Positions 42,246 to 60,759 of a stretch of 64,000 nucleotides of DNA are shown here, in pieces. A program made the position numbers and the translations under genes. The notes below the pieces were generated by a model. It did no database searches. It saw only the letters and a program-made list of their open reading frames with translations, and was not told the origin of the DNA. The stretch's first letter is position 1; each line of letters opens with the position of its first letter. Origin of the DNA: Polyangiaceae bacterium. GTDB taxonomy: Bacteria; Myxococcota_A; Polyangia; Polyangiales; Polyangiaceae. The stretch spans positions 1 to 64,000 of the forward strand of contig JABSRN010000011.1 in assembly GCA_013214025.1 (NCBI GenBank). The letters are read 5' to 3'.

Positions 42246-42878
42246 CTAACGCTGGCTGAGCCGCACTAGGGAGCGTCGGACCCAACTGGGGTGGTCTTGG
42301 CCGAGTGCGACGACATCGGTTTCTGCCGCCAGCGCACTCAGCGCCAGCCCTTGGCTACGCGACACGTTCGCTGTCGTCAGCGTCCGAATTTTTCGCCAGG
42401 TTGCGAGGGCGGCGGCCCAGGCCCCACTCTGGCTGTAGCGCGTCATGAGCTCCCGCAGGGCGGGGTGGTGGCTTGGATCGAGTTCGACGGCAGCTTCTAG
42501 ATCTGCGAGCGCGGCTGGGGCGTGACCTATGCGGAATCGGAGCCCGGCGCGTCCGCGAAGGGCAGCCGCCTTGCCAGCGGGGAGTGACAACGCAGCCGTG
42601 TACACCAACTCAGCGTCCTGATACTGACCGAGTCGCTCGCGAACGGATGCCAGCCGAAGAAAGCCTTCTGCGTAGTGGGGGGCGAGTCGGGTCGCATCGG
42701 TGTAGTGGCGGAGCGCGCGACTGAGCCGCCCTCGTTTTTCTTGCTGAGCACCGCGGCGTATCAGCACTTTGGCACTGGATTCGCCCCAAATTTCGGCCGC
42801 TGCCGTGCTCGGGGCGACCAAGAGGAGCGCGAGCACTCCGGCTGTGGCCAGCCGCCCAGAGCGGTAGGAACTTTTCAT
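42246..42878 (-). CDS. Small exported TPR protein
   Basis: The 210-residue protein has a Sec signal peptide (ATAGVLALLLVAPSTAAAE, cleavage about residue 28) followed by about four TPR-like helical pairs: RGAQQEKRGRLSRALRHYTD, YAEGFLRLASVRERLGQYQD, AALRGRAGLRFRIGHAPAAL and HPALRELMTRYSQSGAWAAA. Such proteins usually act as periplasmic or outer-membrane adaptors. Its gene follows the giant TPR gene by 144 bases on the same strand and could be part of that transcript. The precise partner is unknown. Confidence 0.75.
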   Translation of the reverse strand: MKSSYRSGRLATAGVLALLLVAPSTAAAEIWGESSAKVLIRRGAQQEKRGRLSRALRHYTDATRLAPHYAEGFLRLASVRERLGQYQDAELVYTAALSLPAGKAAALRGRAGLRFRIGHAPAALADLEAAVELDPSHHPALRELMTRYSQSGAWAAALATWRKIRTLTTANVSRSQGLALSALAAETDVVALGQDHPSWVRRSLVRLSQR

Positions 42879-43022
42879 GCCTTAGAATGTCCTAGCACGG
42901 TTCCACCGCAACCGCCGGCGACTGAGGCCGACGATGACGGGGGGCGAGCCCCGGCAATAGGGGCTCCGGGACTCTGGAACTATTAAGCCGAAGCTGTACT
43001 GGGGCCCGAGACCGGGTCCGCT

Positions 43023-46000
43023 CTAGCTCACTCCGATTTGTCGTCGGCTGGCAGCGTAGGAGTCGCTGACGCTGAATACGGCCAAGTCGCGCGCCTCGGC
43101 ATTCCGCACGATCCACTTGAGTCGGTCGGCACCTGATTCGGGGAGTTCGGCGCGGTTGCTCAAGGCGATGGCTGTAATGGCAGCGCTAGGATCCCCCACT
43201 GCCAACAGCGCGGCCCGGTTCCCCCATTGATTGACGGCGGTTGCCAATTGGCTAGCTCGGTTCCCAACAGCCGTGGCAACTTCGAGGGCGACATCTCCGA
43301 GTTGTGGGCTGAGCGGCGATTGGATGGCGCTCTGAAGCCGCCGTCGCGCATCCGCAAACTTGCGAGCTTCCACGTTTTGCGGGACCCAACTGGGGGATAG
43401 CACACTGATGAGCGCGGCGACCATGGGCCAAATCTCTACGGGTGCCAGCCGGGCGATGGCGGCTCCGCGAACCCGCAGGATCGTGAGCGACTGAAACAGC
43501 GCGAAGTTAACGACCAGCGCATTCGGATGAGCGAGCAGTTCTTCGCCGATGACGACTTGAGCGGGTTCGCTCCGCGTCGCGATGCATTTCGGCCCGATGC
43601 TAGAGGAGACCAGTACCTCCAGCTGACTTACGCCAAACTCGACGGCGATTTGCTGAATTTGTCCGACGGTCGCCTGCATGTCTTCGTTGACCGGGTGAGC
43701 CCCGAGTGCCTTCAGATCCATCGGATAGGCTTCGTCCAATACGCCGCCCATTTCAGCTATCAGCAGACGAACGGGAGCCGTCAGTAGCGTCGGCGCCAGT
43801 AGTTCATCCAAGTCGGAGGAGCCGGCCAGCGCCCCCGCGCCGTCGACGCTGGAGCTGCCCCCTTCCAACGCCGCCAAAGTAGCCCGCGCTAGCTCGGCCG
43901 CGTCTTCTCCGCCCCGAAGCTCAGCGATGGTCGCTAATATTCCGAACAAGTCGGGGTCGAAGCGGCCGGTACTCAGCGCCCGCCTGGCGTCGTTCTGCGC
44001 GCGATCGAGCAGCGAATTCAGGCTGGTCTCGTCACCCTTGCGCTGGAAGAACGTGGCGAGGGCCCGCAGAACTCTGGGATCCTGAGGCCATGACTTTCGC
44101 GCCCTTTCCAGGGTTTGCGCCGCCAGCTCCATGTCGCCCACGAATTCTTCGTAGACGCTCGCGAGGGCGACCGTGCGCTCACACTTTTCGTCCGTGCTCC
44201 CGGAGCGCTCGAGCAATTCGAGCTGCAGCTCGACCGCTTGCTGCGGCTCTTCCAGGCGTCCGTAGATCTGTACCAGTTTAGTTGTCGCCGGCACGTCACC
44301 TGGCTGCCTCTTGAGCACTTCCCGGTAGCAGAGCTCAGCGCGTTTGGGGTTCGGCAGATCGCTGAAGTACAGGTCGGCGAGTCGCATGTACATTTCGGCT
44401 TGGCGGGCCGGTTCATCGAGCACCCGGGCGAGACGAATCCACGCTTGTTCAGCCGCTCGCCAATCGCCATCCGTCGCGCAGAGGTTCGCGAACACCTCAA
44501 GGGCGTCCGCGTGGTCGGGATTCGCGTCCAGAGCGGATGTTAGAGCGCGCCGTGCGGCGCCGGCATCGCCGATGTCGGCTAAGGCCTGGCCCCGGCTGAT
44601 CTCAAGCTGGATCCGTTCGACCGGGTCGCTGCAGTTTTCGATGCGCTGGTCGAGTAGCGTCGCCAGCTTGTCCTGGTTGCCAGCGTCGATGTAGCTCTTC
44701 TTTAGCCGTTCGAACACGGCGACGGAATCATCCCCGGCCTCTACCGCTCGCTCCAAGGCGGCCATGCCTCGTTCGGCCTGCTCCGTCCGGCTCAACCAAA
44801 GCTCGCCCGCGGCTAGTAAGTGCTGGATTCGGTGGGCCTCCACGTGGCTGGACTGTGCGAGCGCTTCCAAGCAATCGGCGGCATCTTCCCACTGTTCCAG
44901 TTCTTGCAGCAGCGCGGCCTGCTCGGTCAGGGCGACGATGTGGTCGGGGGATATTTCCACAGCCGAACTGACCAGGTCGAGTGCTTCTTTGTGGTCGCCC
45001 AGGCTGCGTGCGGACTGGGAGGCGCGGAGCAGCAGGGCCGTGCGATCGAGCTCTCTGTCTGTCCGGGTAGACAACATTTCGTTGGCGAGACGGCGTTGTT
45101 TCGGAGAACCCTCGCGCTGACCCACTGCTGCTCGGAGAGCCCAGAGGGCGACGGGGTCTCGAGCCAACGCTTCCTCGACAAGACTGCGGGCGTCGGTAGA
45201 GTCGAGGCCGAGCGCGAGAACTCCCAGTCGGGCGTGGGCATCCGCTTCAGACTCCCCCAGGACCCGCGCAAGAGTGGATGCGACGGGCGCGATGTCGTCG
45301 ATGGCGCCCTCGCTGAACTTCGCTTTTTCGAGGGCTCGCAGGGCGGAAAGGGCGGATGGATCCTCCCCGAGGATGGCCGCGTGCCACTTCAAGCTCTCTT
45401 CGTCCGCACCTCGATTGGCGGACAGACCCTGCAGGCGTTCGTATATTTCGCGACGCGCTGCCGGGTCCTTGACCCGAGCTGCCGATTCCACCAGTTGTTG
45501 TTCCAGAACGCGGCCGTGCTCATCAGCCCCTGCCAGCCGTTCGGCGCTGATCTTCCCTAGCTCGCTGCCGAGAGCCGCGCCGGCTCTCGCCAGTCGTGCA
45601 GCGCTAGCGAGATCTCCGCGGCGTTCGAACTCTAGGGCGGCCTCCACCCGGAGTCGTTCTTGGGTTCGTTCGTCCACTGCAGCTTCGGCGGCACTTTCTC
45701 GCCAGGACGCCCGGTTGTCGCCGTCCGACGGCGAGAGCCGCTCGTGAAGCTCGTGCAGCGCAACATCCTCGGGGCGTATGCCCGTACTGCTTTGCAGCAG
45801 CGCGGCGGCTTCTCCTTGGTCATCGTCGGCCACGAGCAGTGCTTCCCGAACCAAATCCAACGCTTGCTCGCTTGGATCCGGGGAGTTCTTGCGCCGATCT
45901 CGCAGCCAGCTTAGCGCGGCGGGTCCGTCACCAGCAAGCCGCGCACTCAGATAACCGAGCTCGTAGCTGAAGGGGAGTGACGGGGCCATCTGAGCTGCGT

Positions 46001-48635
46001 CAGCCAGGAGCGCTGAGCTCTCTTCGGGAGATGCCTCCGCCGCTCCCAGTCTGAGCGCCGCCTCGATGTTGAGCAATCCTTGCTCAATTGGATCCTTGCC
46101 GACTCCTGCGTCACTGAGCAATTGGGCGAGCCGTGTGGCATCGCTGCTGTTGGCGAGGGCCCGCGTGGCGGTAAGCCCGTGAACGCTGGAGCTGAGCAAG
46201 GCCTCGTAGTCGGCTTGGGCCTTGTCAAATTGTCCACGGGCGTGTTGGAGCGACGCGCTCAGAAAACGCCCGCCGACTCCCTCATTGCTGCTTTCTGCTT
46301 GCGAAGAAGCAAGCGTGCTGAGTCGCTTCGATAGATCATCCTGATTGCCGGTCGCTAACGCTAGCTCCAGCCCGATCACACCAGCGAGCTGGCCGTCGAT
46401 TTCGGCGCTGGTGAACTTATCGAGGAGTTCTGGGAGGTGTTCCGAAGATTCCGTCTGCGCCAGACCGCGTCCGAGAGCGAGGGCACTGGTGACGGCCGCC
46501 TCCACAGGGGGGATATCGACTTCGACCTGGGACCCCATGGCAATGGCTGAGGCTAGAGCGCGGTGCCCTTCCTGATCGGCGAGTTCCTTGAGCCCAGCCG
46601 CCAGGTGGTCTTTTCCGGCGCCGATCAGTGTGGCGAGCGCCACCCGGTCCACGGTGGAGAAGGGGCAAGCTGGCTCGTTGGCTTCGTGCGTGACCGGCTT
46701 GCCTTCAATATCAGATTGCGCGGAGGCGGCGAGGGCGAGTTGTACTCTATCGTAATCGCCTTGTTCGACGGCTCTAGCCGCCAGCGCCCGATGTACGTGG
46801 GCTGTCGGCTCAAGGGAGAGCAGCTCGTTGAGGCTGTCGATGGCCTTCGCTCTTGTGCCCGGGGTCGGGGCGCAAAGTGCGGCGTTCAACCAAAGCGCTC
46901 CTTGCCGGAGCTCGGGCACTTGGGTGAGGTGCTCGAGGGCGGTGCTGGCTGCGCCAATGTCGGCCTTGCCCAATGCGAGGCGGAGCTGGTGGAAAGCAGT
47001 GATCGGAAGCGGGTGCGGGGCGCCCAGGGACGGGCTTCTCAAGATGGCCAACGCTTCTAAAGCGGCATCAAACTTTTCTGACAACGCCGACTCGGGCCAG
47101 CGGAACTTCGCGGGTTTGGTATCGGCTCCGAGCAGTAGCGCGAGTTTGAGCGCCGGCGCACGAGGATCAGCGGGCAATGCCCGTTGCGCCTGGTCGAGCT
47201 TTTTTGAGGCTGCAGCGGAGTCGTCTCGCAGGACTCGATGAATTTCTGCACTCATGTGAGCGGCGTGAGCTTTGGACTCGGCCGTCGGCGATGTCCTCGA
47301 CTCGATTTCGAGGGCTCGAAGCACGCCGTCCCAGTCGGCTTCAACTGCTGCGAGCGTTCGCACTTGCCGTGAGGCGAGGTGATTTTTCCGGTTGGCCTGG
47401 GTGCTTACCTGGGCGGTGCGAGCGGCGGCGGCGTTGTCCCCGCAGCCGGCGAACAACTCGCTCGCCGCGAGCAACAGCCGGGAGCGCCGGTCTAAGTCGG
47501 TTTCGGCTTCGGCTTCGGCTTCGAACCAATTGGCGGTGGTGAATGAATCGTCGACCTCAGCGGGGGCCGCGCTGTCTGCAGCCACTGCGCCCTCGAAACC
47601 GACAGAATATCGATCGGCTTCAAGAGCCTCGAGTTCTTCGGGGGTTACAGCCGCTTCTGTGCGGAGCTCAATTTCGCCGCTCGACGCGCGGGGGTCGTGC
47701 CCCGGGGCATCTCCCTGGCGTTGCACGATGGCTTCTAGTTCTTCTGGACTCAAGTCAGCGTCGCCGCTGATTTGGAGGTGCATGCCCGCCGGGGCAGAGT
47801 CGCGGTCCGTTGCCATGGCCGCGTCCATTGAGATCACGACGGCGTCATCCGGGAGCGTCGGCTCCTGGTCGCGGTGTTTGCCTGCTCCAGCAGGCGGCGG
47901 CGCGGATGAGACGGATGCGGCGATTTTTGTTGCGGGGTCGCTGCTGGGTGCCGCTTCGAGCGTGTCGAGAGCTTTTGCATCGGCGAGGGTGGATTCCGCC
48001 GCAGCGGGCGGAGGCTGGGAAGCGGCAGTTTTCACAAGCTCTGCGGCCTCGGCCAGCACCTGGGCGTTGCGGGTCATGTCCCCGGCATCAGCAACCAGGG
48101 TTTCCAGCTCGTCGCGGTAAGGGTCTTCGCCCCTCACCGAGCTCAACGGTTCGTCCAGTTCAGCGGTGTTAACCTTGGGCGGCCGGATGGAAATCGGCGC
48201 CAGCGCTGACTCTAGCTCGTCGTCATCGAAATCGCCCGATAACAGCTTCTTGGGCAGCGGTGGTTTCGAGCGACTCGCCGAAGGAGACGAGGTAACTCCG
48301 TCGGCGGGCATGGGGGGCACAGCGGGGGAGCGGACCACCGCCGGTCGCGAGCTGAGGGGGGCCGGTCCAGACAACACTGGAGGGCTCGTGGGGCTTACGG
48401 CCGGTAAGAAGGGCTCTCTGCGTAAGCCGGGAGGATTGACGCCCGGAGGGCGAGCCGTTGTGTCCGGTACAGGTAGGCGACCGGGCGGTTTCGCCGGGCT
48501 CGGGAGTCGTCCGCTGGTCCCTTTGCTTTTCGACGGCAGAGGCAGCTTGGGTTTCGGTAGGGGTGGGCGCGCTTTATTAACGCTCCCTGGTTTCTTTGGC
48601 GGTGTAGAACCGCCGCTGGCTCTGCCCTCACTCAT
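43023..48635 (-). CDS. Giant TPR protein with Pro-rich N-terminus (1870 residues)
   Basis: No signal peptide or membrane segment is evident, so it is probably cytoplasmic or associates with another protein. Residues 1 to about 170 are Pro/Ser/Lys-rich and look disordered (PPLPKPKLPLPSKSK). From about 380 to 1590 the sequence is a long array of TPR-like helical pairs (for example EQAALLQELEQWEDAADCLE and LAQQALERA-type repeats), forming a solenoid. From about 1600 to the end lies a compact domain (LLAPTLLTAPVRLLIAEMGG, then QVVIGEELLAHPNALVVNF) also found, diverged, at the end of the neighbouring 1594-residue protein. Its ATG overlaps that gene's stop by four bases. The function is not known; scaffold is the natural guess. 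Confidence 0.7.
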   Translation of the reverse strand: MSEGRASGGSTPPKKPGSVNKARPPLPKPKLPLPSKSKGTSGRLPSPAKPPGRLPVPDTTARPPGVNPPGLRREPFLPAVSPTSPPVLSGPAPLSSRPAVVRSPAVPPMPADGVTSSPSASRSKPPLPKKLLSGDFDDDELESALAPISIRPPKVNTAELDEPLSSVRGEDPYRDELETLVADAGDMTRNAQVLAEAAELVKTAASQPPPAAAESTLADAKALDTLEAAPSSDPATKIAASVSSAPPPAGAGKHRDQEPTLPDDAVVISMDAAMATDRDSAPAGMHLQISGDADLSPEELEAIVQRQGDAPGHDPRASSGEIELRTEAAVTPEELEALEADRYSVGFEGAVAADSAAPAEVDDSFTTANWFEAEAEAETDLDRRSRLLLAASELFAGCGDNAAAARTAQVSTQANRKNHLASRQVRTLAAVEADWDGVLRALEIESRTSPTAESKAHAAHMSAEIHRVLRDDSAAASKKLDQAQRALPADPRAPALKLALLLGADTKPAKFRWPESALSEKFDAALEALAILRSPSLGAPHPLPITAFHQLRLALGKADIGAASTALEHLTQVPELRQGALWLNAALCAPTPGTRAKAIDSLNELLSLEPTAHVHRALAARAVEQGDYDRVQLALAASAQSDIEGKPVTHEANEPACPFSTVDRVALATLIGAGKDHLAAGLKELADQEGHRALASAIAMGSQVEVDIPPVEAAVTSALALGRGLAQTESSEHLPELLDKFTSAEIDGQLAGVIGLELALATGNQDDLSKRLSTLASSQAESSNEGVGGRFLSASLQHARGQFDKAQADYEALLSSSVHGLTATRALANSSDATRLAQLLSDAGVGKDPIEQGLLNIEAALRLGAAEASPEESSALLADAAQMAPSLPFSYELGYLSARLAGDGPAALSWLRDRRKNSPDPSEQALDLVREALLVADDDQGEAAALLQSSTGIRPEDVALHELHERLSPSDGDNRASWRESAAEAAVDERTQERLRVEAALEFERRGDLASAARLARAGAALGSELGKISAERLAGADEHGRVLEQQLVESAARVKDPAARREIYERLQGLSANRGADEESLKWHAAILGEDPSALSALRALEKAKFSEGAIDDIAPVASTLARVLGESEADAHARLGVLALGLDSTDARSLVEEALARDPVALWALRAAVGQREGSPKQRRLANEMLSTRTDRELDRTALLLRASQSARSLGDHKEALDLVSSAVEISPDHIVALTEQAALLQELEQWEDAADCLEALAQSSHVEAHRIQHLLAAGELWLSRTEQAERGMAALERAVEAGDDSVAVFERLKKSYIDAGNQDKLATLLDQRIENCSDPVERIQLEISRGQALADIGDAGAARRALTSALDANPDHADALEVFANLCATDGDWRAAEQAWIRLARVLDEPARQAEMYMRLADLYFSDLPNPKRAELCYREVLKRQPGDVPATTKLVQIYGRLEEPQQAVELQLELLERSGSTDEKCERTVALASVYEEFVGDMELAAQTLERARKSWPQDPRVLRALATFFQRKGDETSLNSLLDRAQNDARRALSTGRFDPDLFGILATIAELRGGEDAAELARATLAALEGGSSSVDGAGALAGSSDLDELLAPTLLTAPVRLLIAEMGGVLDEAYPMDLKALGAHPVNEDMQATVGQIQQIAVEFGVSQLEVLVSSSIGPKCIATRSEPAQVVIGEELLAHPNALVVNFALFQSLTILRVRGAAIARLAPVEIWPMVAALISVLSPSWVPQNVEARKFADARRRLQSAIQSPLSPQLGDVALEVATAVGNRASQLATAVNQWGNRAALLAVGDPSAAITAIALSNRAELPESGADRLKWIVRNAEARDLAVFSVSDSYAASRRQIGVS

Positions 48636-51600
48636 CGAATTCCCATCCCAAGTTTTTCACGAATTGATAGATACTCGGGCGACAACACGAAGCTCAACAG
48701 GCGCTTCGCTCGCGCGTTCATCTCGTGAGAATCTTCTAAGCGCCCCCGCTCCCCGTCGAAGGCGAGCACCCACGAAACATCGCCCGCTGCGATGGTTGCC
48801 ATCCGATCCAAACTCGAGCGAGCGGAATCTGCCCAGTCCTCGGTGGTCACGCCTTCGGCCTGAATGCGTTTGCAAACATCGACGATTTGCTTTTTTACTT
48901 TGCGTGGTGCGTGTTTGCTCAATTGATGTTCGAATTCCCCGAGCAAGGCGTAATCTGGCGACTCAAGGGGGGAGCCCGAGAGGCGGCAGGCGGCAGCCAC
49001 CATCGCAGCGACGTCGGGCGATTCCCGGTGGCGAAGTAGGCTGGTCCCCCGGCGGAGGGCGAGCAACTCGCGGGCGACTCGCTGTCGGAACTGGGGCTGG
49101 AGCGGGGCGGACACCGCTGTCCCGATGACCAGGATCGGTTTGTCGCTGGCCACCGCGGTCACCGTTTCATCGTCCGCCCCCCCCACATAAATTTCCAGAT
49201 TTTCGACACCCAAGGCGCCCGCCCACGCAATGATTTCATTGCGAATCGCCAGTCCGGAGTTGGCCTTCAATCGATCTCGACGGCCGACGCCCAGCCGATC
49301 GAGACTAGGGCCTATGGACTTGGTGATGGTGGGTGCCAATAGCTGGAACAGTTCGGCGATGGCGCCGCCGTCTTCGGGATCGCACAGGTTGTTGATGGCG
49401 GCTTTGTCGAGCTTGATCTGGGGAGTGCTGGCGACCCGTCGGTCCAGCGCCAGCAGTTCGGCCTCCACGTCGGCGTTGCTTTGGCTCAAGCACAGCGACA
49501 CGCCGAGGGAGGCTTGTAAGAGTTGCAGATCCTCGAGGTGCTCGGAGATGGCCGTCAAGCGCCCCACATTTTCCGCGTCCATCGGTTCTGCTCCGAGCTT
49601 GCGCACCAGAGCTCGGCTTCCGGACGTCAGAAGGGGGGTGCTGAATTCGCTGGGGAAAATATTGCTCAACAGCAGGTCTAGGGCTTCGCCATCGTGAGGG
49701 ATCTCGGCGAGTAGGCGCGTTACGGCGACTTCAGCTCGCTCCGGCTCCGCCAATTTATCGCGATAGATAGCTATCGTGAGACGAGCGGCTTGGGCCCGGC
49801 CGGCGCTGTCCTCTCGCTTCTGCATGAGTTCGGAAAGGGCCGTGATGGCGGTCTCCCACGCGGCCGCTTTGGCTGCGACTCGGGCCAGACGTTCGCGGAC
49901 GGGCATGGTGCTGAGTCCAGAAGCGTGCAGAGCCGACAGCACTTCCACGGCGCGGTCTAGATCCTTGAGCTTGTTCTCGTAGAGATCGACGGCAGCCACC
50001 CCACTCATCAGTCGTTGTTTGTCTGGAGCGTCTTCTAAGACGGAGAGGCGTGCCAATTTTTCGGCGGCTTCCTCAAAACGCCCGGCGGTGATGTGGATTT
50101 CGCCAGTTAAGGCCAAAGCCCCGACATGATCCGGTTCGAGCAGCGTGACGTTGTCCAGCGCTGCCAATGCCTGCTCTGTGTCGTTGAGTTGTCGATAGGC
50201 CCGTGCCCGCTCCCAATACAGCTTCGCGATCTGTTTCGGATCGTCTGCTACCTCCAGCCGGCGTTCGATGAGCTCAAGTAGGGCCGGGTTGTCTTTTCTG
50301 GCTCGGAGGATGCGGAACCAGCGGTCGAAGCAGCTGAATCGGTCTATGTCTTTCGAGACAGCTCGTTCCAGAGCTTGCTCGCCGCGCTCTTCATCGCCGA
50401 GCTGGTCGAGCAATATGTGGGAAGCCTCCTCCCACAGGGCAGCTCCTCGGAGCGGATCGGCTGTGATGTCTCCCAGGGCGGCGCAGGCTTCGGCGAGCAT
50501 TTCTGGATCGCCCAGCGCCGTCGCGGCATCCTTGAGACCCTGCCAAACGAACAACTCGTCGGGATGCGTTTCCAAGGCTCGCCGGAATTCTTCCACTGCC
50601 GCACTCGCGTTGTTAGCTTTCAGCCAGTTGAAGCCAGCCAAAGCGGCGGCCATGCCGGAGGTCGAGTCTCCGAGGCTGCCCCCCACATTGGAGAACGCGC
50701 GAGCTCGGCGCTCCGCATCGCCGCCGGGCTCCGCCAGCTCCAAGTTCGTAAGCACGGCCGCTGGCGAGCGGCCGCGCAACAGCTCCGGAGGGGAGGCGCC
50801 GCGCTTCAGATGTTGCAGCAGACTGGCGCTGGCCTTGAAGGCGTCGACTGCGGTGTCGTCCCCGATATCGCTGATATGTCGTGCCAGGGACAGCCGAGCG
50901 GCGATTTCCGCGGATTGATCTTTGCGAGCGACGGCGATGCCGAGAATTTCTAGCGCAGAGGGCAGGTCGCCACTTTCCGCGGCCCAAGCGGCGGCCCATC
51001 GCGGGACGCTCTTAGGATCGGAAGCCGTATCAGCGAGGGCGGCGTAGTAGCGGCGGGAAGCCTCCAAGGCTCGCGCCTCGCTGCCCAGTTCATGGAAATT
51101 CAGCCAGTGCCCAGCTTCGTCATCGGAGGCGTCGGCGAAGCAGGCGGAGGCGAGCTTGGCAGCGTCGCGAAACCCACGGCTGTCGGCGGCGCTCAAGTCC
51201 TTGAGCGCTTCGGTTCCTAGCGCTTCGTTGCGCTCATGAACGGACAAGCCCCAGCTTTCGAGCACGCTGAGCTCCGGCATCGGCCCGCCCATTGAAGTGC
51301 TCACCAGAGTCTGTCGGCGGGACGGCAGATCGTCGGGTGCCGAAGCCCGCAGCGCCCACTGCACGAGCTCCTCAGACCCGGTACCGGCGGTCCGGAACGT
51401 TTCGATAGCCAGAGTGCGTTCTCCAGCGCTCCATTGCAGCATGCCGGCTTCCAATTGCAGCGCTGTCCGAAGATCGTCCTCGGGAAGGCTGTCCGCACAA
51501 GATCGGAGAATGGCGGCGGCCGCCGTAGGATCGTCGGTTCGCATGAGCACGCTCAGCAAAGCGGCCACCACCGCTTCGGACGGATCAGCCTGCTGGAGCT

Positions 51601-53416
51601 CCGTGAGTTGAGCTATGGCGCCGGCCCTGTCCTTCATCGCGAGCTGCCGAAGAGCGGCGGCCAGGCGAAAGCAGCGGGCGCGCTCGGGATCCGATTCCAC
51701 GGCGGCCAGCTCAAGCAGCGGCGTCGGAGCCGAGTCTTCTGCTGTTTCGGTTCCTGTCGCTGCCGTTGATGCTTCGGGCGGCGCGGTCTCCGGTGAAGTT
51801 GCCGCAGCCGCCCGCATCGCGGGGATTACGTAGCTGCTCATGGCGGCTGCGAGCCAGGCGCCGTCCGGGTGGGCGCCGGCGTTCTTTACCGCGTGACTGC
51901 AGGCGTCGAGATTGCCTTGTAGAAGACTGGACAAGGCGAGTTCGAAGCTGAGGCTGAGCTTTTCGGTGTCGGACTCGGTGGTCGTGATGAGACGACGAGT
52001 GGATTCCTCGTACCACGCGGTGTCTTTCGCGAGGGAGGCGAGCATCCGACCCACCCGAGCGAGAGTCGGCTTATTCGCCCCCGAGAGTCCTGCTTGCGCC
52101 AACGCCGCTTGCGCGCCTTGAACGTCCCCCGCGTAGCGAATCCAAGCTTCCGCGCTCAGCAGGAAAAACTTTCCTTTGGTCTCGTCGTCGGAAAACTGCT
52201 CGGCGGTTTCTTCGAGGGCGGTGGGGTAGTCGGCACCGTGAAGATTGCCGGCTAGCAGATCGAGCAAGAGGCTCCGCGCGGGCACGCAGCCCGGGTCCTC
52301 TTTGAGCGCTGAAGAGAGTGCGTTGACGGCACCCGAGGCGTCTCCTTGGGAAGCGCAAGCTTCCGCGGTCCTCATCCAGAGCGACGCGGCAGGCGATCCC
52401 TTCACTCCGTGCTCCAGCTCTGCTTGGGCGCGGGCTGCCGCCGACTCCGTGTCGTTCAGGGCTTCGGCTAATTGAAGTCTCGCGTGTAGCAACAACGATT
52501 CGTCAGGCAGTACACGGAGAGCTCGGTCCAGTAGGGCGCAAGCAGCGGTGCTATCCCCCTGCCGGCGATGAGCTTCCGAGGCGCGGAGCCAGGCGTCGGC
52601 GATGTACGGACTTTTGCGCTTGTATCGGGGGATTCCGCGGGCCGTCGCGCCGTCCTCGTCGTCCAAACTCTTGGTGAGGAGGGAGGCTTGTCCTTCAAGG
52701 GCTCGGGCCAGCGTTTCGTTGTTGTCGAGCTCGCGGGCGAATTTTTCGAGGCTGAGCAGAGCGGCGAAGCTGGCAGTGCTCTTGCTTTCGACCACTTCCA
52801 CAGTCAGCCGAAGCGCCTTGTCGCCTTCCCCTGCCGACATCGCGAGTTCGGCGAGATCCAATCGCAATAGCGCTGCCCAACTCGCATCAATCGTGTTGTG
52901 GAGGCGCCCCTCGATGGCTTCGGCAGCCGCTTCGGGGTCTTCGGAACGCCGCGCCGCTAGCTCGAGCAGTAGCCCCGCGCTGGATTCCTCTTTGTTGAGT
53001 TCGAGAGCTCGTCGAAGTTGAACTTTTGCCTCGTCGAAATCGCCTTTGTTTTGAATCAAGAACGCCGCGTATTCCACCAGCGCGTGGGTCGACTCTTCCG
53101 TACCTTCGGCGGAAGCGCTCAAACGCTCCAACAGTTTGCCTAAGTTCTTAGCGGACTCGCGTCGCCGAAGGATCGAAACTAGGTGCTCCAGCGGCTCGCG
53201 AAATTTCTCGACAGCACTGACCGCGCCAAGCAAGTCGCGGGCGGCACTGGAGTCGTCCTCCGCTTGCTCTTCCAGCAGAGCGATCTCGTAGAGCAACGTC
53301 GCCTGTGCTTCTGGGACCGTCGTCTCACCAAACTCAGAACGCAGCCTGCCGATGCTGTCGGCGAGGGGCCCGGGGTCCGGAGGTGTCGTGTTCGGCGGCG
53401 GAAGTGAAATCGACAT
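48632..53416 (-). CDS. Giant TPR protein (1594 residues)
   Basis: The protein lacks a signal peptide. After a short Pro-rich start (SISLPPPNTTPPDPG) it is a near-continuous solenoid of TPR-like repeats to about residue 1340, for example VEYAAFLIQNKGDFDEAKVQ and AKLYWERARAYRQLNDTEQA. Residues about 1350-1594 form a domain shared with the next giant protein: ELFQLLAPTITKSIG, KPILVIGTAVSAPLQPQF and RVARELLALRRGTSLL. The RELLALRRG helix recalls the position of the HExxH helix in M48-type peptidases, but no zinc ligands are present. The ATGA overlap with the 1870-residue gene indicates coupled, probably stoichiometric synthesis. Confidence 0.7.
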   Translation of the reverse strand: MSISLPPPNTTPPDPGPLADSIGRLRSEFGETTVPEAQATLLYEIALLEEQAEDDSSAARDLLGAVSAVEKFREPLEHLVSILRRRESAKNLGKLLERLSASAEGTEESTHALVEYAAFLIQNKGDFDEAKVQLRRALELNKEESSAGLLLELAARRSEDPEAAAEAIEGRLHNTIDASWAALLRLDLAELAMSAGEGDKALRLTVEVVESKSTASFAALLSLEKFARELDNNETLARALEGQASLLTKSLDDEDGATARGIPRYKRKSPYIADAWLRASEAHRRQGDSTAACALLDRALRVLPDESLLLHARLQLAEALNDTESAAARAQAELEHGVKGSPAASLWMRTAEACASQGDASGAVNALSSALKEDPGCVPARSLLLDLLAGNLHGADYPTALEETAEQFSDDETKGKFFLLSAEAWIRYAGDVQGAQAALAQAGLSGANKPTLARVGRMLASLAKDTAWYEESTRRLITTTESDTEKLSLSFELALSSLLQGNLDACSHAVKNAGAHPDGAWLAAAMSSYVIPAMRAAAATSPETAPPEASTAATGTETAEDSAPTPLLELAAVESDPERARCFRLAAALRQLAMKDRAGAIAQLTELQQADPSEAVVAALLSVLMRTDDPTAAAAILRSCADSLPEDDLRTALQLEAGMLQWSAGERTLAIETFRTAGTGSEELVQWALRASAPDDLPSRRQTLVSTSMGGPMPELSVLESWGLSVHERNEALGTEALKDLSAADSRGFRDAAKLASACFADASDDEAGHWLNFHELGSEARALEASRRYYAALADTASDPKSVPRWAAAWAAESGDLPSALEILGIAVARKDQSAEIAARLSLARHISDIGDDTAVDAFKASASLLQHLKRGASPPELLRGRSPAAVLTNLELAEPGGDAERRARAFSNVGGSLGDSTSGMAAALAGFNWLKANNASAAVEEFRRALETHPDELFVWQGLKDAATALGDPEMLAEACAALGDITADPLRGAALWEEASHILLDQLGDEERGEQALERAVSKDIDRFSCFDRWFRILRARKDNPALLELIERRLEVADDPKQIAKLYWERARAYRQLNDTEQALAALDNVTLLEPDHVGALALTGEIHITAGRFEEAAEKLARLSVLEDAPDKQRLMSGVAAVDLYENKLKDLDRAVEVLSALHASGLSTMPVRERLARVAAKAAAWETAITALSELMQKREDSAGRAQAARLTIAIYRDKLAEPERAEVAVTRLLAEIPHDGEALDLLLSNIFPSEFSTPLLTSGSRALVRKLGAEPMDAENVGRLTAISEHLEDLQLLQASLGVSLCLSQSNADVEAELLALDRRVASTPQIKLDKAAINNLCDPEDGGAIAELFQLLAPTITKSIGPSLDRLGVGRRDRLKANSGLAIRNEIIAWAGALGVENLEIYVGGADDETVTAVASDKPILVIGTAVSAPLQPQFRQRVARELLALRRGTSLLRHRESPDVAAMVAAACRLSGSPLESPDYALLGEFEHQLSKHAPRKVKKQIVDVCKRIQAEGVTTEDWADSARSSLDRMATIAAGDVSWVLAFDGERGRLEDSHEMNARAKRLLSFVLSPEYLSIREKLGMGIR

Positions 53417-53587
53417 GCGATCGAGGTGGGGGCGAAGCGTCTAGGACGCTGCCCGGGATTCTAGGCGACAGTGCCGGGCCTGCCTAGTGGTGTGCCGCAG
53501 TCCTCGGTGAATCGTTACCGCTTGGGTTTGGTGCATCGTCTGAGACGCGCCATGCATGTGAATCGATTGTATCGGAGAGTGCTACTT

Positions 53588-54130
53588 CTACTTGACGCGG
53601 CGGACAATCCAGTAGCCGCGGGGTGTGTCGATCGGTTCGTCGTTCACGTCCTTTTTCGCCAACGTGAACAATGCATACTCGGCTGCGGGTTCTAATACTC
53701 CCCTGGGGATGTGTCCGGCGTTTGATGTGGACCCTGGGTCACCGAGTTTTACGGCTGTCTTGAAGTCCTTCTTGGCGGCCGCAACGATTTCTACGGCCTT
53801 CTTTCTGGCTTCGGCTTTGGTCCGCGCACCTGGACGGGCTCCCTGAGCTTGACGGTGAGAGACGAGAATTACGCCGAAGGTGACCCCTTTGGGGGCATCG
53901 TCAGGCAGAGGAAGGACGCCCTCCACGGAAGTTTCCGCGCCCCCGCCATCCTTCGGGGCTGCGGCGTCCACCGGGATTTTAGCGGGTTTCGCGGGTTGGG
54001 CCGAAGCCGGCGCGGCGACCGGCTGGGACTGCGGTTCCGGCACCGGCGTTTGCTTAGATTTGTATATCGCGACTGCGAGCACAAGAATCAACAGTCCGCC
54101 AAGCGCGATGGGGGTGCGACGCTCCTTCAT
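53588..54130 (-). CDS. Membrane-anchored parvulin-like (PpiC) protein, probably not catalytic
   Basis: The 180-residue protein has a short basic N-terminus, one membrane segment (ALGGLLILVLAVAIYK, about residues 8-23), a Pro/Ala-rich linker and a C-terminal parvulin-type domain (about 80-180): VILVSHRQAQGARP, RTKAEARKKAVEIV, DFKTAVKLGDPGSTSNAG and GYWIVRRVK. In active parvulins the first strand begins with His (HILV) and the last reads GYHI; here these positions are Val and Trp. The domain may therefore bind peptides without isomerising prolines. It lies 171 bases upstream of the two giant TPR genes on the same strand and is divergent from the zinc-ribbon/TPR gene. Confidence 0.72.
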   Translation of the reverse strand: MKERRTPIALGGLLILVLAVAIYKSKQTPVPEPQSQPVAAPASAQPAKPAKIPVDAAAPKDGGGAETSVEGVLPLPDDAPKGVTFGVILVSHRQAQGARPGARTKAEARKKAVEIVAAAKKDFKTAVKLGDPGSTSNAGHIPRGVLEPAAEYALFTLAKKDVNDEPIDTPRGYWIVRRVK

Positions 54131-54377
54131 CCGACCTGCCGCCTAGCACGAAAAGGGGGCGTTCCGTGGATTTTTGGGCTCGGAATGGTCGCGCTCATAT
54201 TGAACTGTCCAGGATCGCTGCTGGGTATCGTGCTGACGCCGGTCCGACCCCAAAAAATAAGTGAGATTGTGCGGTGTATCGGATTTCTCCCGGCGTGCTG
54301 CTTGGCCTAGACTGGACCTGATCCCCGTTCCGGCAGTGTCGGGGTGGGACGCGAGGAAGTAAGGGTCAGATTAATCG

Positions 54378-57300
54378 ATGTTTAAGGTCGAGTGCCCGGG
54401 GTGCAAGGCTCCGTATCAGGTAGACGAACGCCGCGTGCCTGCAACTGGATTGCAGATGCGTTGCCCAAAGTGTGGGAGTAGTTTCAAGGTGGAGGCGCCT
54501 GGAGCGGCTGGCGCACCTGAAGCGGTTGGAGGGGCTGCAGGTGCCGCCCCCCGTCCTGCGCTGAAAAAGCAGCCGGCGATGAAGGGCACGATGCTCGGAG
54601 TCGCGGTGCCGCCGGGGCTGTTGGCGAAGGCGACAGCAGACGCGCCGGCCGAAGATGTGGGTTTGCCGGTGGTGAACGCCGACGGACCCGCAGAGGGGGC
54701 GGATTTGCCGTCGCCCGCTAAGGCTGGCGTTCCGCGCCCGCGGGGCGGCACCTTAGCTGCGAATACAATTCCAAGGCCGATGGCGCCGTCAGCGCCTGCC
54801 TCGCCTTCTGTAGATCCCTTCGCCGTACGTGCGCCGTCGATCATGCCTCACCCGCTACCCAGCCCAAAAAAGGGTGGCACGCTTCCGGGCCGTACTGCTC
54901 CTGGGGCCGACATTCCGTTACCCACCGTGGGAGGAGACGCGGCCGATCCCTTCGCGGCCGCTCCCTTCGCAGCGCCTGGCGCTGCAGATCTGCCGGCGCC
55001 CGTTGTGCCGGCGGTCGCCCCGCTCCCCGGACCTGCTGTCAAGGGCGGCACCTTACCGGGGCGTGCGCCCTTGCCCGTTGTGGATGACAGCGCTGGGCTG
55101 CCATCTCCAGTTGGCGCTGATGCCGGTGGTGCCGATCTTCCGGTGTTCACCGGAGGCATCGATCTGCCGTCACCTGCGGGTGGTCTTCCTCGACCGGATG
55201 AAGCCGATCTCCCCGCAGTCGGTGGCGCGGGAACTGCGGATGATCCCGAGGTCTTTGGCGCAGACTTGCCATCCCCTGCAGGCGCGGATCTGCCGTCGCT
55301 CGGAGGCATCGATTTGCCAACTCCGGGCGGTGCAGCGCTTCCGTCGCTCGGAGGCATCGATTTGCCGACTCCAGGCGGAGCGTCACTTCCATCCCCCGGA
55401 GGCGTCGGCTTGCCATCCCCCGGAGGCGTCGGCTTGCCATCCCCCGGAGGCGTCGGCTTGCCATCCCCTGGAGGAGCAGCGCTGCCATTACCTGGGGGAG
55501 CCGGCTTGCCCGCGGCAGCTGCCGACTTGCCGTCACCGGGGGCGGGATTGCCTGCTGCCAGCGACGGATTCGGCGAGCTGGAAGCACCCGGCGGGGGCGT
55601 GTTTGACGAGGTCTCGGCGGAGGGGGACCCATTCGCTAGCCCGGCCGCCGAGGTTGACCCATTCACCAGCCAAGCCGCAGAAGCAGACCCTTTTGGCGCC
55701 CCTCCCGCTCAGGGTAGCGATCCCTTTGGAGCGCCGCCTCCGGGGCATGGTATTGGGGCGGCCGAAGCGGCGGAGGATCCCTTCGGAGCCCCACCAGCTG
55801 AAGCGGATCCTTTTGGCGGCGACGACGCGGCAGCCGATCCCTTCGGAGGGGTGGCAGCGTCGGATGACGGTGGCTTCGGTCAGGGCGAAGCGGCAGATTC
55901 TGGCGGATTTGGCGATTCGGCTGGAGCGGATCCCTTCGGGGCGCCACCAGGCGATGGCTATGCGGCGCCCGAGGCAGAGCCCAGCGGATTCGGATCGCCC
56001 GAACCAGTCAGCGATGCCTTTGGCGCCGGTGACGAAAATGACGGATTCGGCGGTGACGACAGCGGTGGCTTCGGCGAGCCGGACGAAGATGACTCTTTCG
56101 GTGCGTCTGACGGTGAAGGCTTCGGTAGCGATTCTGAAGCGCCTGATACTTCAGGAGGTGGCGCCGGTTACGGCGAGGTCGATCTCGGCGGCGGTGCGGA
56201 TAGCGAAGATGACGCTCTCGGTTCCCTCGTTAGCGAACCACCTCCGTCGACGTCTGACCCAGGCGCCATGGAGTTTGGCGGGATCCCTCAAGAAGAGGAC
56301 GACGACGGCGCGGAAATCGCGCGACCGTCGATGGTCGTGCAAATGCCGACCGCGGCAGGCGTCGGTATTTCCGAAGAGGAACACCAGAAAAGCCGACGTC
56401 GCAAGCGGGTCGGCATTGCGCTCTTCATGATTGTGCTCCTGTCGGGCGGCGCCTTGGCGCTGCTGCCGGAATACGGCGCATTCGGCTATCGCCGGATTGC
56501 GGACAAGTTAAAAGAGGGCGACCACAAAGATCTGCTGGAGAGAACCGTCTTGGTGACACGGGAGAACTTTGGGAAGGACACGTTCCCGGACGCTGACAGC
56601 GCACTAAAACAAGCGGAGGCCGCGACACAGGAAGCAGTACGTTTTCGCCCCGTGCAGGCCTACGCTGCCTACGTGGCCTACGCGCGGATTCTACGTTTTG
56701 GCCCGGCATCGGAGGTGCGCGCTCGAGCCAAGGTGACACTGGATGGCCTGGCTCAATTTCCTGAGACCGCCAAGCTCGAGTTGGCCCAAGCGGCCCAGGC
56801 AGCCGCTAGTGGGCAACTCGGCCAGGCCCGGGAAATTGCCACGACATTGGTGGCGCGCAACGGCAACGACGTAGACGCTTTGGTGTTGTTGGGCGAAGTG
56901 GAGCTCCGGAGTAAAAAATACGCCGCCGCCGTGAAGGCCTGGGAAGCGGCAGAGTCGGCAGGCCGCGATGCACGATCGATTTATGGTCTCGCGCGCGCCC
57001 TAGCTGGGACAGGGGAATCCCAGAAAGGTGAACAGCTTTGTCACGCAGGGATCAAACTCAACGCCAATCACGTTGGGTTCAAAATCCTGCTGGCTCAGCT
57101 GATTTGGGATACTCGCCACGAAGAGGCGGAGGCCAGCAAGCTGCTGTTGGCGGTGATCAAGGCGGCCAAGCTCGCCGGTAAGCACGAAGTCGGTCGGGCT
57201 CAGACCTTGCTGGGCGAGATCTACCTATCTCGCGGACTGATTGGGCGCGCTGACCACGCTTTCGAAGAAGCGCTAAAGATCAACCCGAAGAACGCACGCG

Positions 57301-58820
57301 CCCTGTCGGGCTTCGGTGACGCTTTGTACCAATCGGGACGTTACTCTGAGGCGAAGGGGCGATTCGAAGCAGCGATGCAAACGGATCCCAAAGACGTGCA
57401 CGCGATGCTTGGCTTTGCCAAGACGAGTATCGCGCTAGAGAGGCTCGACGACGCCAACCAACTGCTTGAGAAGCTAAAGAAGGACCATCCGGAGGATGCG
57501 GAAGTCGCCTATTGGTTTGGCGTGGTGGCCCGAGAACTGGGCGACCGGATGACGGCTGAAGCCAGTTTTAAAAAGGCGATTTCTGTCGGCGAGAGTCGCC
57601 CGAGCGCGGTGAAATCCTACATCGCCTTGGCGATGTTGCAGATCAATCTGGGCCGGGACGACGAAGCGGGGCAGACCCTGTCCAAGGCGGAAAGAAACCT
57701 ACCGGGTAGTGCCGAACTTCACAAAGCCTTGGGCAAGGTGAAGATGAGCCTGGGTGAATACGACCTGGCGCTGCAGCGCTTCGGGCGGGCTCTGGCGTTG
57801 GATCCTGAAGATATCGATGCGCGGTTTCGTATCGGTGTGGCTTATCGTCGGAAGCGAGACTTTGACAAGGCTTTGGCGACATTCGCCGAGGTAGAAAAGG
57901 TGGACCCGGATCTGCCTCAGCTGGCACTAGAACGCGGCATCGCGCTGGAAGAGTCGGGAAGTAGCGCGGATGCGCTCCAGGCCTACGAGGCGGCGTTGGC
58001 GAAAGCGCCGAACGACACGGATCTCATGCTGCGAGTTGGCTGTAGCAAGGCGGCCGCAGGCTACGGCGTTCAGGCCCAGGAGATGCTCGAAAAGGTTCTA
58101 CAGAAGCGCCCGAAGCATGCCGAGACCAACCATTGTCTCGGTCGAGCGCTGATGAACGCCGGCACGTTATCGGACGCTGTGAAAAAGTTGGCGCGAGCGG
58201 TCAGTATCGATCCCAACAACGCGACCTATCATCTCTATGTGGGCTGGTGTGAAAACCGCTTGGGCCACCGAGCGAAAGCGAACACTTCCTTGCGCAAGGC
58301 GCTCAAGCTGGACAAGGGTCTCGCTGAGGCCTACTGGCAGCGCGCGGTGCTCCGAAACAGCCAGGGAGCCCACCAAGACGCCGTAAAAGATCTTGTGTTG
58401 GCGCTCGAAAAGCGTCCCGACCTCGTCGAGGCGCATGCGGAGCTCGCTCGGGCCTACAAGGACTTGGGGGGTCACGACGTCCAAGCCATCCAGCACTACC
58501 AAATCGCAGTTCGACGCATGCCGGATGACGCTCGGACTCACTATCGCTTCGGCCGTTTGATGAGTGAAAAAGCCAACCGCGTGCGTTGCGTTGAGCTGTT
58601 GAACAAGGCGATTCGGATCGTCAAACTAGAGCGAGAGAAAATCGCCCCCATGTGGCTAGCCGACGCGCACCACCTGGCCGCCGACTGCCTCGGAGACAGC
58701 CGGCAGGCGGTTGACCACTGGAAAGCGTATCTGCGGATTCGGAATCTCTCCGGTGACATTTACCGAAAAGACGGTATCGCGTTCCTCAAGCGCTATGGCA
58801 TCAACTGGGAAGACGAATAA
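54378..58820 (+). CDS. Zinc-ribbon, transmembrane, TPR envelope protein (1480 residues)
   Basis: Four regions are visible. Residues 1-40 are an MJ0042-type zinc ribbon (C6-x2-C9 and C29-x2-C32). Residues about 45-640 are a Gly/Pro/Asp-rich low-complexity region with GLPSPGGV repeats and many DPFGAP-like units. A basic stretch (KSRRRKRVGIALFM) leads into one membrane segment (about 679-698), giving N-inside, C-outside topology. Residues about 720-1460 are at least 15 TPR repeats, for example FDKALATFAEVEKVDP, which would lie in the periplasm. The combination of cytoplasmic zinc ribbon, flexible linker and membrane crossing recalls the gliding-motility protein AgmX/GltJ of Myxococcus, although GYF and TonB domains are absent. 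The ribosome binding site is AGGAAG. It is divergent from the parvulin-like gene. Confidence 0.8.
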   Translation: MFKVECPGCKAPYQVDERRVPATGLQMRCPKCGSSFKVEAPGAAGAPEAVGGAAGAAPRPALKKQPAMKGTMLGVAVPPGLLAKATADAPAEDVGLPVVNADGPAEGADLPSPAKAGVPRPRGGTLAANTIPRPMAPSAPASPSVDPFAVRAPSIMPHPLPSPKKGGTLPGRTAPGADIPLPTVGGDAADPFAAAPFAAPGAADLPAPVVPAVAPLPGPAVKGGTLPGRAPLPVVDDSAGLPSPVGADAGGADLPVFTGGIDLPSPAGGLPRPDEADLPAVGGAGTADDPEVFGADLPSPAGADLPSLGGIDLPTPGGAALPSLGGIDLPTPGGASLPSPGGVGLPSPGGVGLPSPGGVGLPSPGGAALPLPGGAGLPAAAADLPSPGAGLPAASDGFGELEAPGGGVFDEVSAEGDPFASPAAEVDPFTSQAAEADPFGAPPAQGSDPFGAPPPGHGIGAAEAAEDPFGAPPAEADPFGGDDAAADPFGGVAASDDGGFGQGEAADSGGFGDSAGADPFGAPPGDGYAAPEAEPSGFGSPEPVSDAFGAGDENDGFGGDDSGGFGEPDEDDSFGASDGEGFGSDSEAPDTSGGGAGYGEVDLGGGADSEDDALGSLVSEPPPSTSDPGAMEFGGIPQEEDDDGAEIARPSMVVQMPTAAGVGISEEEHQKSRRRKRVGIALFMIVLLSGGALALLPEYGAFGYRRIADKLKEGDHKDLLERTVLVTRENFGKDTFPDADSALKQAEAATQEAVRFRPVQAYAAYVAYARILRFGPASEVRARAKVTLDGLAQFPETAKLELAQAAQAAASGQLGQAREIATTLVARNGNDVDALVLLGEVELRSKKYAAAVKAWEAAESAGRDARSIYGLARALAGTGESQKGEQLCHAGIKLNANHVGFKILLAQLIWDTRHEEAEASKLLLAVIKAAKLAGKHEVGRAQTLLGEIYLSRGLIGRADHAFEEALKINPKNARALSGFGDALYQSGRYSEAKGRFEAAMQTDPKDVHAMLGFAKTSIALERLDDANQLLEKLKKDHPEDAEVAYWFGVVARELGDRMTAEASFKKAISVGESRPSAVKSYIALAMLQINLGRDDEAGQTLSKAERNLPGSAELHKALGKVKMSLGEYDLALQRFGRALALDPEDIDARFRIGVAYRRKRDFDKALATFAEVEKVDPDLPQLALERGIALEESGSSADALQAYEAALAKAPNDTDLMLRVGCSKAAAGYGVQAQEMLEKVLQKRPKHAETNHCLGRALMNAGTLSDAVKKLARAVSIDPNNATYHLYVGWCENRLGHRAKANTSLRKALKLDKGLAEAYWQRAVLRNSQGAHQDAVKDLVLALEKRPDLVEAHAELARAYKDLGGHDVQAIQHYQIAVRRMPDDARTHYRFGRLMSEKANRVRCVELLNKAIRIVKLEREKIAPMWLADAHHLAADCLGDSRQAVDHWKAYLRIRNLSGDIYRKDGIAFLKRYGINWEDE
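55389..55460 (+). repeat. 24-bp tandem coding repeat, three copies
   Basis: Three identical 24-bp units encode a PSPGGVGL octapeptide in the low-complexity part of the zinc-ribbon/TPR protein. Because the unit is a multiple of three, copy-number change would keep the frame. Confidence 0.9.
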
Positions 58821-58854: not shown

Positions 58855-60759
58855 CTAGCTGAGCCCTCGACGGCGGCGAGCTCGCTCAGCCTGTTCACGC
58901 AGTAGCGTCAACTCCTCGTCCAATTCTCCGGAGGCAGCGGCTCTCTCCAGTTCTTGAAGGGTTTCATTCTTCAGCCGATGGCCGTCCAGAACCTTCAATT
59001 TTTCTAAGTTGAGCTGTGCCTCGATCTTGGAGGAGTCGATGTCCGTGTGTCGGGGGGCCGCAAGACGGGCGGCGGCATAGCGGCGAATTTTCTCAGCGAG
59101 AGATTCGAGAAAACTCGTTACATCGAGGGAGCCGTCGGGCCCACGGTGAGTCCGTAGGGTAGCGACGGCTAGCGCAAGATCGCCTTCCAGCAGAGCGAGC
59201 GCGTCCTGGAGATCGTCGTCTTCAAGTAGCGCCGGAAAATCGAGCAAGGCGCCGAATATTTCAGTGGATACAGCCCCCTGAGGCGAGTGCGACCGCGCGC
59301 GGTGGGGCGGCTCGGCTCGCGGCGCTTGAGGCCCGGCGTCGTTCTCCGGATCGGAAAATCGGGTGGCGCTGCGAATTTTTTGAGATAGGGCACGGAGGGT
59401 CCTGGCGTCGGCGATTCCCAACCGCTCCGCGATACGATCCGCGTGGGCCTCCGCCATCGCACGTAACGCGGGGTCGTTTTCTTCCCGAATCAGCTCTGTG
59501 ACCTCGTTGATTTTCGCGGCTCGAGCCTGGGCGTCGTCGGCCGAAAATCCACTGTCAAGCGCCGACTCAATCAGGTGTTCCAGCAGACTCTTGGCGCCAT
59601 CGATACACGCTTTGAGTCCGTCGACTCCCCGCTCGCGAATCAGATCGTCCGGATCTTTGCCATCTGGGAGTCGACCGACCCGAGCGATGAGTCCGCAGTC
59701 CAGCACGGGACTACGAGCACTCTTGGTGGCGCGGCGACCGGCCTTGTCGCCGTCAAAGAGTAAGGTGATGTTTTGCGTGTAGCGCTTCACTTGCGCGGCT
59801 TGCTCTGGGGTGAAGGCAGTTCCCAGCGGAGCGACTACGTTGCGGATGCCGCGCGCGTGCAGGCTGACGACGTCGAAGTTCCCCTCCACCATGATGCAAC
59901 GGTCTTCGCGTCGTACCGCGTCGCGAGCTTGGTAGAGTCCGAATACCGCCGCGCGTTTCTGATAAACGGGGGACTCGGGAGAGTTCATATACTTGGCGGG
60001 CTCTTCGCCGGGCCGCCCCATTCTTTCGAGGCTGTGCTCGCGCAACGCGGCATCATCCGGTTCGTCCAATGCGCGACCGCTGAAGGCGATGACTCGACCT
60101 CGCAGATCCGTGACGGCGAACATGAGCCGATGTCGAAACTTGTCGAAGTGTCCGCCGCCGCTTCGACGGGGGCTCAATAGACCCACCTTTTCGGCGGCGG
60201 TGTGGCTCATGCCGATTTTACGCAAGTGCTTGCCCAGGCCATCCCAGGCGTAGGGTGCGTAGCCTAGGCGAAACGCCGCCATTGTCTCTTTGGTGAGCTC
60301 GTCTTTGACGTCCAAACCTCGACGCAGGATTTCGGCCTGTGCCAACTCCGCGCACGGCGCGGTCCGTAAACACTCTTCGAAAAAGGCGGCGGCAGCGTTC
60401 CCTACCTCGAATAATTCGTCCTTGCGGCGACGGGCTTCCTCTCGTTGCCTTCGATCTGCGTCGCTGATGTTTTCGACGATGGAGATGCCGGCGCGCTCAG
60501 CGAGATCCCGGATCGCCTCGACAAAAGACAGGCCTTCGGTTTCTTGGATGAATTTGATGGCGTCACCGGACGCCTGGCAGCCGAAGCAATGGTAAAAACC
60601 GCGCTCGTCGTTGACGTGAAAGCTTGGCGTCTTCTCCTTGTGAAAGGGGCACAAGCCGGTGGCGCTACGTCCCCGCTTCTGTAACTTGACGCGTTCGCCT
60701 ATCAGTACGCTCAACGTCGTTGACGACCGAACCTGGTCGATGGTGTCTTGGTCGATCAC
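58855..60759 (-). CDS. dnaG: DNA primase DnaG
   Basis: Synthesises RNA primers at the replication fork. The 634-residue protein has the N-terminal zinc-binding domain (CPFHKEKTPSFHV then YHCFGC), the RNA polymerase core with TLFDGDKAG-type TOPRIM aspartates (LLFDGDKAGRRATKSA) and the TOPRIM Glu in MVEGNFDVVSL, where many relatives have EGYMDV. The last 150 residues form the helicase-binding helical domain. GTG start at 60759. The gene converges with the zinc-ribbon/TPR gene (34 bases apart) and is divergent from the radical SAM gene. The usual macromolecular-synthesis neighbours rpsU and rpoD are not adjacent; rpsU lies about 18 kb away. Confidence 0.95.
   Translation of the reverse strand: MIDQDTIDQVRSSTTLSVLIGERVKLQKRGRSATGLCPFHKEKTPSFHVNDERGFYHCFGCQASGDAIKFIQETEGLSFVEAIRDLAERAGISIVENISDADRRQREEARRRKDELFEVGNAAAAFFEECLRTAPCAELAQAEILRRGLDVKDELTKETMAAFRLGYAPYAWDGLGKHLRKIGMSHTAAEKVGLLSPRRSGGGHFDKFRHRLMFAVTDLRGRVIAFSGRALDEPDDAALREHSLERMGRPGEEPAKYMNSPESPVYQKRAAVFGLYQARDAVRREDRCIMVEGNFDVVSLHARGIRNVVAPLGTAFTPEQAAQVKRYTQNITLLFDGDKAGRRATKSARSPVLDCGLIARVGRLPDGKDPDDLIRERGVDGLKACIDGAKSLLEHLIESALDSGFSADDAQARAAKINEVTELIREENDPALRAMAEAHADRIAERLGIADARTLRALSQKIRSATRFSDPENDAGPQAPRAEPPHRARSHSPQGAVSTEIFGALLDFPALLEDDDLQDALALLEGDLALAVATLRTHRGPDGSLDVTSFLESLAEKIRRYAAARLAAPRHTDIDSSKIEAQLNLEKLKVLDGHRLKNETLQELERAAASGELDEELTLLREQAERARRRRGLS

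Follow-up and report, generated by a model that had tools for sequence, protein, structure and literature searches.

A conserved gene cluster of Polyangiaceae encoding two giant TPR proteins with a GltI-type C-terminal domain, a bitopic zinc-ribbon protein and a pseudo-parvulin

Trans-envelope scaffold machinery of the Glt/Nfs kind is so far known from gliding and sporulation. Within it, GltI (AgmK) is a giant TPR protein that has neither a signal peptide nor a membrane segment (PMC3169522), and GltJ is reported to be acted on by MglA in M. xanthus (PMC12288465). The stretch of DNA analysed here (the window) comprises 64,000 nucleotides of a Polyangiaceae bacterium (contig JABSRN010000011.1), in which an earlier note had picked out five open reading frames, P1 to P5, as parts of a candidate envelope system; all five were present at the coordinates noted. 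No description of the P5-P4-P3-P2 cluster was found in the open-licence literature, and this cluster is real, conserved and undescribed there. New here are the C-terminal domain that P2 and P3 share with GltI and the finding that the best solved match of the zinc ribbon of P5 is GltJ/AgmX. The features of the locus are the following:

42246 to 42878, reverse strand: P1, exported TPR protein of 210 aa; an accessory neighbour, not a conserved member
43023 to 48635, reverse strand: P2, giant TPR protein of 1870 aa, predicted cytoplasmic, with a proline-rich N-terminus
43026 to 43820, reverse strand: C-terminal domain of P2, common to P3, GltI and other giant TPR paralogs; no HExxH
48632 to 53416, reverse strand: P3, giant TPR protein of 1594 aa, paralog of P2, with its stop codon overlapping the start of P2
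48635 to 49417, reverse strand: C-terminal globular domain of P3 (pLDDT about 95, AlphaFold), homologous to the ends of P2 and GltI
53588 to 54130, reverse strand: P4, 180 aa, N-terminal membrane anchor and pseudo-parvulin domain (residues about 79 to 180)
54378 to 58820, forward strand: P5, bitopic protein of 1480 aa; gene divergent from P4
54378 to 54497, forward strand: zinc ribbon of P5 (C6, C9, C29, C32), best solved match GltJ/AgmX 7zok
54498 to 56378, forward strand: linker of P5, predicted cytoplasmic, with repeated DLP/GLP motifs
56397 to 56465, forward strand: membrane segment of P5, with SRRRKR on its N-terminal side

P3 and P2 share 4 bp (ATGA) at the junction of their genes, which makes translational coupling probable. 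On the strand of P3, and 171 bp upstream of it, comes P4, which is separated by about 250 bp from the divergent P5; P5 and dnaG (58855-60759) converge, and beyond them, at 62347, there is an atpD-like gene. TPRs were matched by Pfam in P1, P2, P3 and P5. P1 displayed, besides its TPRs, an N-terminal hydrophobic signal-like stretch, and the small exported TPR protein of the earlier note was thus found as described; since it occurs close to P2 in just 7 of about 45 loci, however, it was rejected as a member of the group. Neither motor (AglRQS) nor outer-membrane Glt genes were seen among the eight proteins scanned (38870-60759). Elsewhere in the window, about 10 kb upstream of the cluster, the starts of the ORFs indicated a run of mur/fts-like division and cell-wall genes ending in an ftsZ-like ORF (15300-31700), and IS3-type transposase-like ORFs were read from the sequence at the window edge (2-1148).

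Judging from their sequences, P2 and P3 are paralogs of each other. A 19-residue hydrophobic window above 1.6 was absent from both, no signal peptide was seen, and the two proteins are predicted to be cytoplasmic, which agrees with the pair of giant cytoplasmic TPR scaffolds first proposed. They resemble GltI/AgmK (MXAN_4863) in being giant TPR proteins that lack both a signal peptide and a membrane segment, whereas they differ from it in length (1.6-1.9 kaa vs. 3.8-4.2 kaa in GltI), in forming a tandem pair located outside the glt G1-type cluster, and in being limited to the Polyangiales and an allied family. The identity of P3 went down to 35-47% across the loci compared.

The C-terminal 260 or so residues of both giants make up a conserved domain, which was searched for with profiles built from the last 420 residues of P2 and P3. 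The same domain was present on three further giant TPR proteins of the window's genome (L090 on contig C170, L091 on C57, and L092 on C32), on proteins from other families and classes (L099, L100, and L108), and at the end of a protein of 4158 aa from another class (L104). The L104 protein adjoins a protein scoring 431 bits with the GltG model, short of its cut-off of 650, and was taken as GltI because of this GltG-like neighbour. The window's genome also contains a glt-like cluster (C47, L155), where a GltG match (343 bits, again below the cut-off) stands beside a GltI-like protein of 3789 aa ending in the same domain (E 4.8e-11 with the P2 profile and 5.7e-17 with the P3 profile); the C-terminal domain of P2 and P3 is therefore shared with the GltI-like proteins of both L104 and the window's own genome. 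Giant TPR proteins with this domain constitute an unnamed family in Myxococcota, and at least six of them were counted in the window's genome (P2, P3, the GltI-like protein, and three others). One of these paralogs (L091, G000:C57:19000-38000; 7310-12736, 13253-14746) has type II secretion-like (gsp) genes and the gene of an MshEN-domain protein as its neighbours. The same genome encodes a TPR protein of 3774 aa (L089, G000:C99:110-11434) that lacks the GltI-type C-terminal domain, and a relation of P2 and P3 to this protein was rejected for that reason.

The C-terminal domain of P3 was predicted by AlphaFold to be globular, with a pLDDT of about 95. Pfam offered no consistent match by which to name the domain across 52 members and no match to M48 peptidases, and a sequence search of the PDB with the domain gave no match. 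Structural comparison of the P3 domain with Foldseek and VIA-align yielded clear matches only to the leading TPR helices, with no M48 match of note in Foldseek; this outcome does not show the fold to be new. In profile-profile alignments (hhalign) against 20 M48 peptidases from the same order, the probability of the match was 92% with the paralog profile and 79% when all 104 domains were combined, as compared to at most 0.4% in reversed and shuffled controls; it dropped to 3% with the P3 profile alone and to 3-5% with either P3 or P2 alone. In the alignment, the HExxH helix of the peptidases faced a helix devoid of the motif, and their ExxAD helix was paired with a conserved T-A-D-R stretch; HExxH occurred in 0 of the 104 domains examined. 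The domain is thus like M48 metallopeptidases (HtpX, BepA) by remote profile similarity over the HExxH and ExxAD regions, but has no HExxH and is placed behind a cytoplasmic TPR array. It is probably a degenerate, catalytically dead M48-like domain, whose relation to M48 would be remote.

P5 is composed, in this order, of a zinc ribbon, an LP-rich linker, one membrane segment, and about 700 residues of TPRs, which matches the divergent zinc-ribbon/TPR membrane protein of the earlier note. The zinc ribbon is intact, with four Cys, and not degenerate (Zn_ribbon_4, 43 bits with a cut-off of 30), and C6, C9, C29, and C32 were unchanged in 16 orthologs. It belongs to a widespread type; its top match among solved structures was AgmX/GltJ (7zok, E 8.7e-6). 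The linker contains 28 LP vs. 6.5 expected from its composition, and the same excess was found in all 16 orthologs (14-35 vs. 5-12 expected). Hydrophobicity indicated one strong membrane segment at about residues 674-696, with the hydrophobic window at 678-696 and strong TPRs after it. The SRRRKR stretch on the N side of this segment suggests an N-in, C-out topology, and the TPRs are predicted to be periplasmic. P5 therefore shares with GltJ/AgmX (MXAN_4862) the type of N-terminal zinc ribbon, the long linker, and the single membrane segment, whereas the LP repeats of the linker and the about 700 TPR residues past the membrane segment set it apart, as does the lack of a match to the GltJ equivalog NF033761 at E<=1e-5. 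A score of 109.6 with the SycD/LcrH model, just above its cut-off of 104.8, was rejected as an identity for P5 and attributed to generic TPR similarity, because this short chaperone model summed several matches along the long TPR array; NCBIfam TPR matches to MamA, PrsT, PilW, GltE, and LapB stayed below their cut-offs and were likewise considered generic.

P4 matched Pfam Rotamase above the cut-off and showed an N-terminal anchor by hydrophobicity. The AlphaFold model of its parvulin domain (residues about 79-180; pLDDT mostly >94) matched Pin1, PrsA, and SurA in the PDB. In an alignment with two parvulins of a related genome, the positions of the catalytic His were occupied by V87 and W174; among the P4 orthologs His was found at neither position (36 out of 36), position 87 being V, A, or I and position 174 W, Y, V, or L, with W retained in 31 of the 36, whereas the parvulin relatives L014 and L015 presented His at both. 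P4 is thus similar to PpiC/parvulin prolyl isomerases (PrsA, SurA, Pin1) in fold and Pfam match, but differs from them in lacking both catalytic His and in consisting of a single anchored domain. This points to a maintained binding domain rather than an isomerase, and agrees with the membrane-anchored inactive parvulin put forward earlier. Also as claimed before, the encoded proteins have parts on both sides of the inner membrane according to their predicted topology.

The distribution of these proteins was determined in 76 Polyangiales genomes (threshold E<=1e-20 for P3 and P2). P3 was detected in 66 and P2 in 73 of them, a few of the weakest matches being paralogs or GltI, and P5 in 66, nearly always in single copy. 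P3 and P2 were adjacent in 48 of the 61 genomes having both (49/62 in the raw count, which included G295, where one protein was matched by both profiles). Most non-adjacent cases were on contig fragments; only in G114 (5 contigs; P3 on C1 and the best P2 on C3) is the tandem clearly divided in a good assembly, and this genome seems to be a genuine exception. P4 (>=125 bits) appeared only in the family of the window and in family f8. In a sample of 187 genomes of the phylum, P3 and P5 occurred together in 29, P5 only in 3, P3 only in 1, and neither in 154. Strong P3 matches came only from Polyangiales, family f14 (G160, G248), and G131, and the range of P5 was the same with the addition of a weak match in G060; other matches to P3 across the phylum were mostly different giant TPR frames, many of them of 3.4-4.2 kaa, the size of GltI. 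The P3-P2 tandem and the single-copy P5 thus span the Polyangiales and one allied family, with practically no occurrence in the rest of Myxococcota. The conservation across Myxococcota considered in the earlier note consequently failed for the phylum and held for the order as regards P3-P2 and P5, with the full cluster in Polyangiaceae only; co-occurrence in related genomes was likewise observed for P2, P3, and P5 but not for P4, restricted to two families, and elsewhere the parts stood at separate loci. In G131, a genome from another family, P5 and P3 were on one contig (G131:C1, L105), with a P2-like frame behind P3 and similarity at the within-family level. G074, of the same genus, had no P3; because of this and of the shared contig, the G131 contig is probably a contaminant, or possibly a transfer. 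Within the order, co-presence of P3 and P5 was only weakly coupled in near-complete genomes (p=0.16), so the phylum-wide association of the two may be largely due to shared ancestry.

In a tree of P3, built by a quick method and with long branches, P5-P4-P3-P2 was the prevailing arrangement in the main Polyangiaceae clade, with 24 loci having all four genes; one subclade had no P5 nearby and a sister group had P4-P3-P2 alone. The joint presence of P4 and P5 required 4 changes on this tree vs. 14.4 when labels were shuffled. In family f8, P4 follows atpD and atpC, and P3-P2 and P5 are found at other loci; in f3, f5, and f9, P5 and a zapA-like gene diverge, and in f6 P5 lies beside dnaK-like genes. 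The divergent zapA-like neighbour of P5 in other Polyangiales families, with uvrC close by, was seen at loci L109, L110, L113, L122, and L123. As P5, P4, and P3-P2 occupy distinct loci outside the main Polyangiaceae clade, separate loci have been united; the four-gene cluster is old in Polyangiaceae only, and relatives keep its parts apart. Around it, dnaG was near P5 in some loci only and the far flank was variable. The strongest argument that the genes share a function is this union of separate loci, followed by retention amid changing flanks. The conserved neighbours (zapA, uvrC, dnaK, atpD, dnaG, nadD, panB, and coaE, read from sequence starts) were rejected as a functional clue, since they are housekeeping genes and differ between families.

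Taking these factors together, we tentatively favour a model in which P3/P2, as a GltI-type scaffold pair, and P5 form an inner-membrane-linked scaffold resembling GltI/GltJ; the model supposes that the proteins bind one another and that they serve some process. P3 and P2 would be duplicated GltI-type cytoplasmic scaffolds with TPR arrays and a dead M48-like end. P5 would cross the inner membrane and dock P3/P2 through its cytoplasmic zinc ribbon and DLP/GLP motifs, while its periplasmic TPRs would recruit envelope proteins; in Polyangiaceae P4 may add a non-catalytic, client-binding part on the periplasmic side. Such a scaffold would operate in the manner of GltI and GltJ in gliding, except that it would have neither a motor nor outer-membrane components of its own. 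The complex suggested earlier is supported in part, by the co-occurrence of the genes and by their predicted topology, whereas nothing points directly to motility, secretion or envelope assembly, or to any other particular process such as division. More speculative, and in our opinion rather doubtful, is the wider proposal of a Polyangiales-specific trans-envelope scaffold machine, made of a duplicated GltI-type giant and a P5-type adaptor, to which the pseudo-parvulin was added in Polyangiaceae and which would represent a second, motor-less branch of the Glt/Nfs kind.

It is also quite conceivable that no single system exists: P3-P2 would be a pair on its own, P5 an independent lineage-specific envelope TPR protein, and P4 a leftover chaperone fragment, with clustering reflecting gene-order inertia after a chance rearrangement. 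The separate location of P5 and P4 in most other families, the lack of P4 across most of the Polyangiales, and the non-significant association between P3 and P5 in near-complete Polyangiales genomes are consistent with this; in contrast, the joining of separate loci that then stayed united through deep divergence while their flanks changed, and the equally narrow taxonomic range of P5 and P3-P2, speak against it.

A variant or accessory module of the gliding machinery (Glt/Agl), with P2/P3 as additional scaffolds of the GltI type and with P5 as an alternative to GltJ that uses the Agl motor or the MglA polarity switch, seems unlikely. The C-terminal domain common to P2/P3 and GltI, the proximity of the P5 ribbon to GltJ among solved structures, and the action of MglA on GltJ in M. 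xanthus (PMC12288465) argue for it. However, a separate glt-like G1 cluster of the genome encodes a GltI-like protein, and weak matches to GltJ-like zinc ribbons occur at other places in it; given this GltI-like gene, the cluster is not the gliding machine. Moreover, no motor or outer-membrane genes were seen in the P1-P5 cluster, and the sampling of other classes yielded no P5 or P3 orthologs, G131 aside. A scaffold for the assembly of a type II secretion system or type IV pilus is the least probable option. Two observations speak for it: the L091 paralog with the same C-terminal domain adjoins gsp-like genes as well as an MshEN-domain protein, and in G248 (L103) the gene immediately upstream of the P3-P2 tandem codes for an MshEN-HEAT protein. 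At the loci examined, however, with neighbours judged from the starts of their sequences, no secretion genes were noticed beside P2-P5 themselves.

Few parts of the bacterial gliding machine are as poorly understood as GltI, and the results presented here place this protein in a family of giant TPR proteins with an apparently dead peptidase-like end, of which there are several per genome and one duplicated pair is kept order-wide. The domain of about 260 residues provides a tractable handle on the role of giant TPR proteins. If P5 docks P3/P2, as in the inner-membrane-linked scaffold that we tentatively favour, the Polyangiales would possess an undescribed inner-membrane scaffold.
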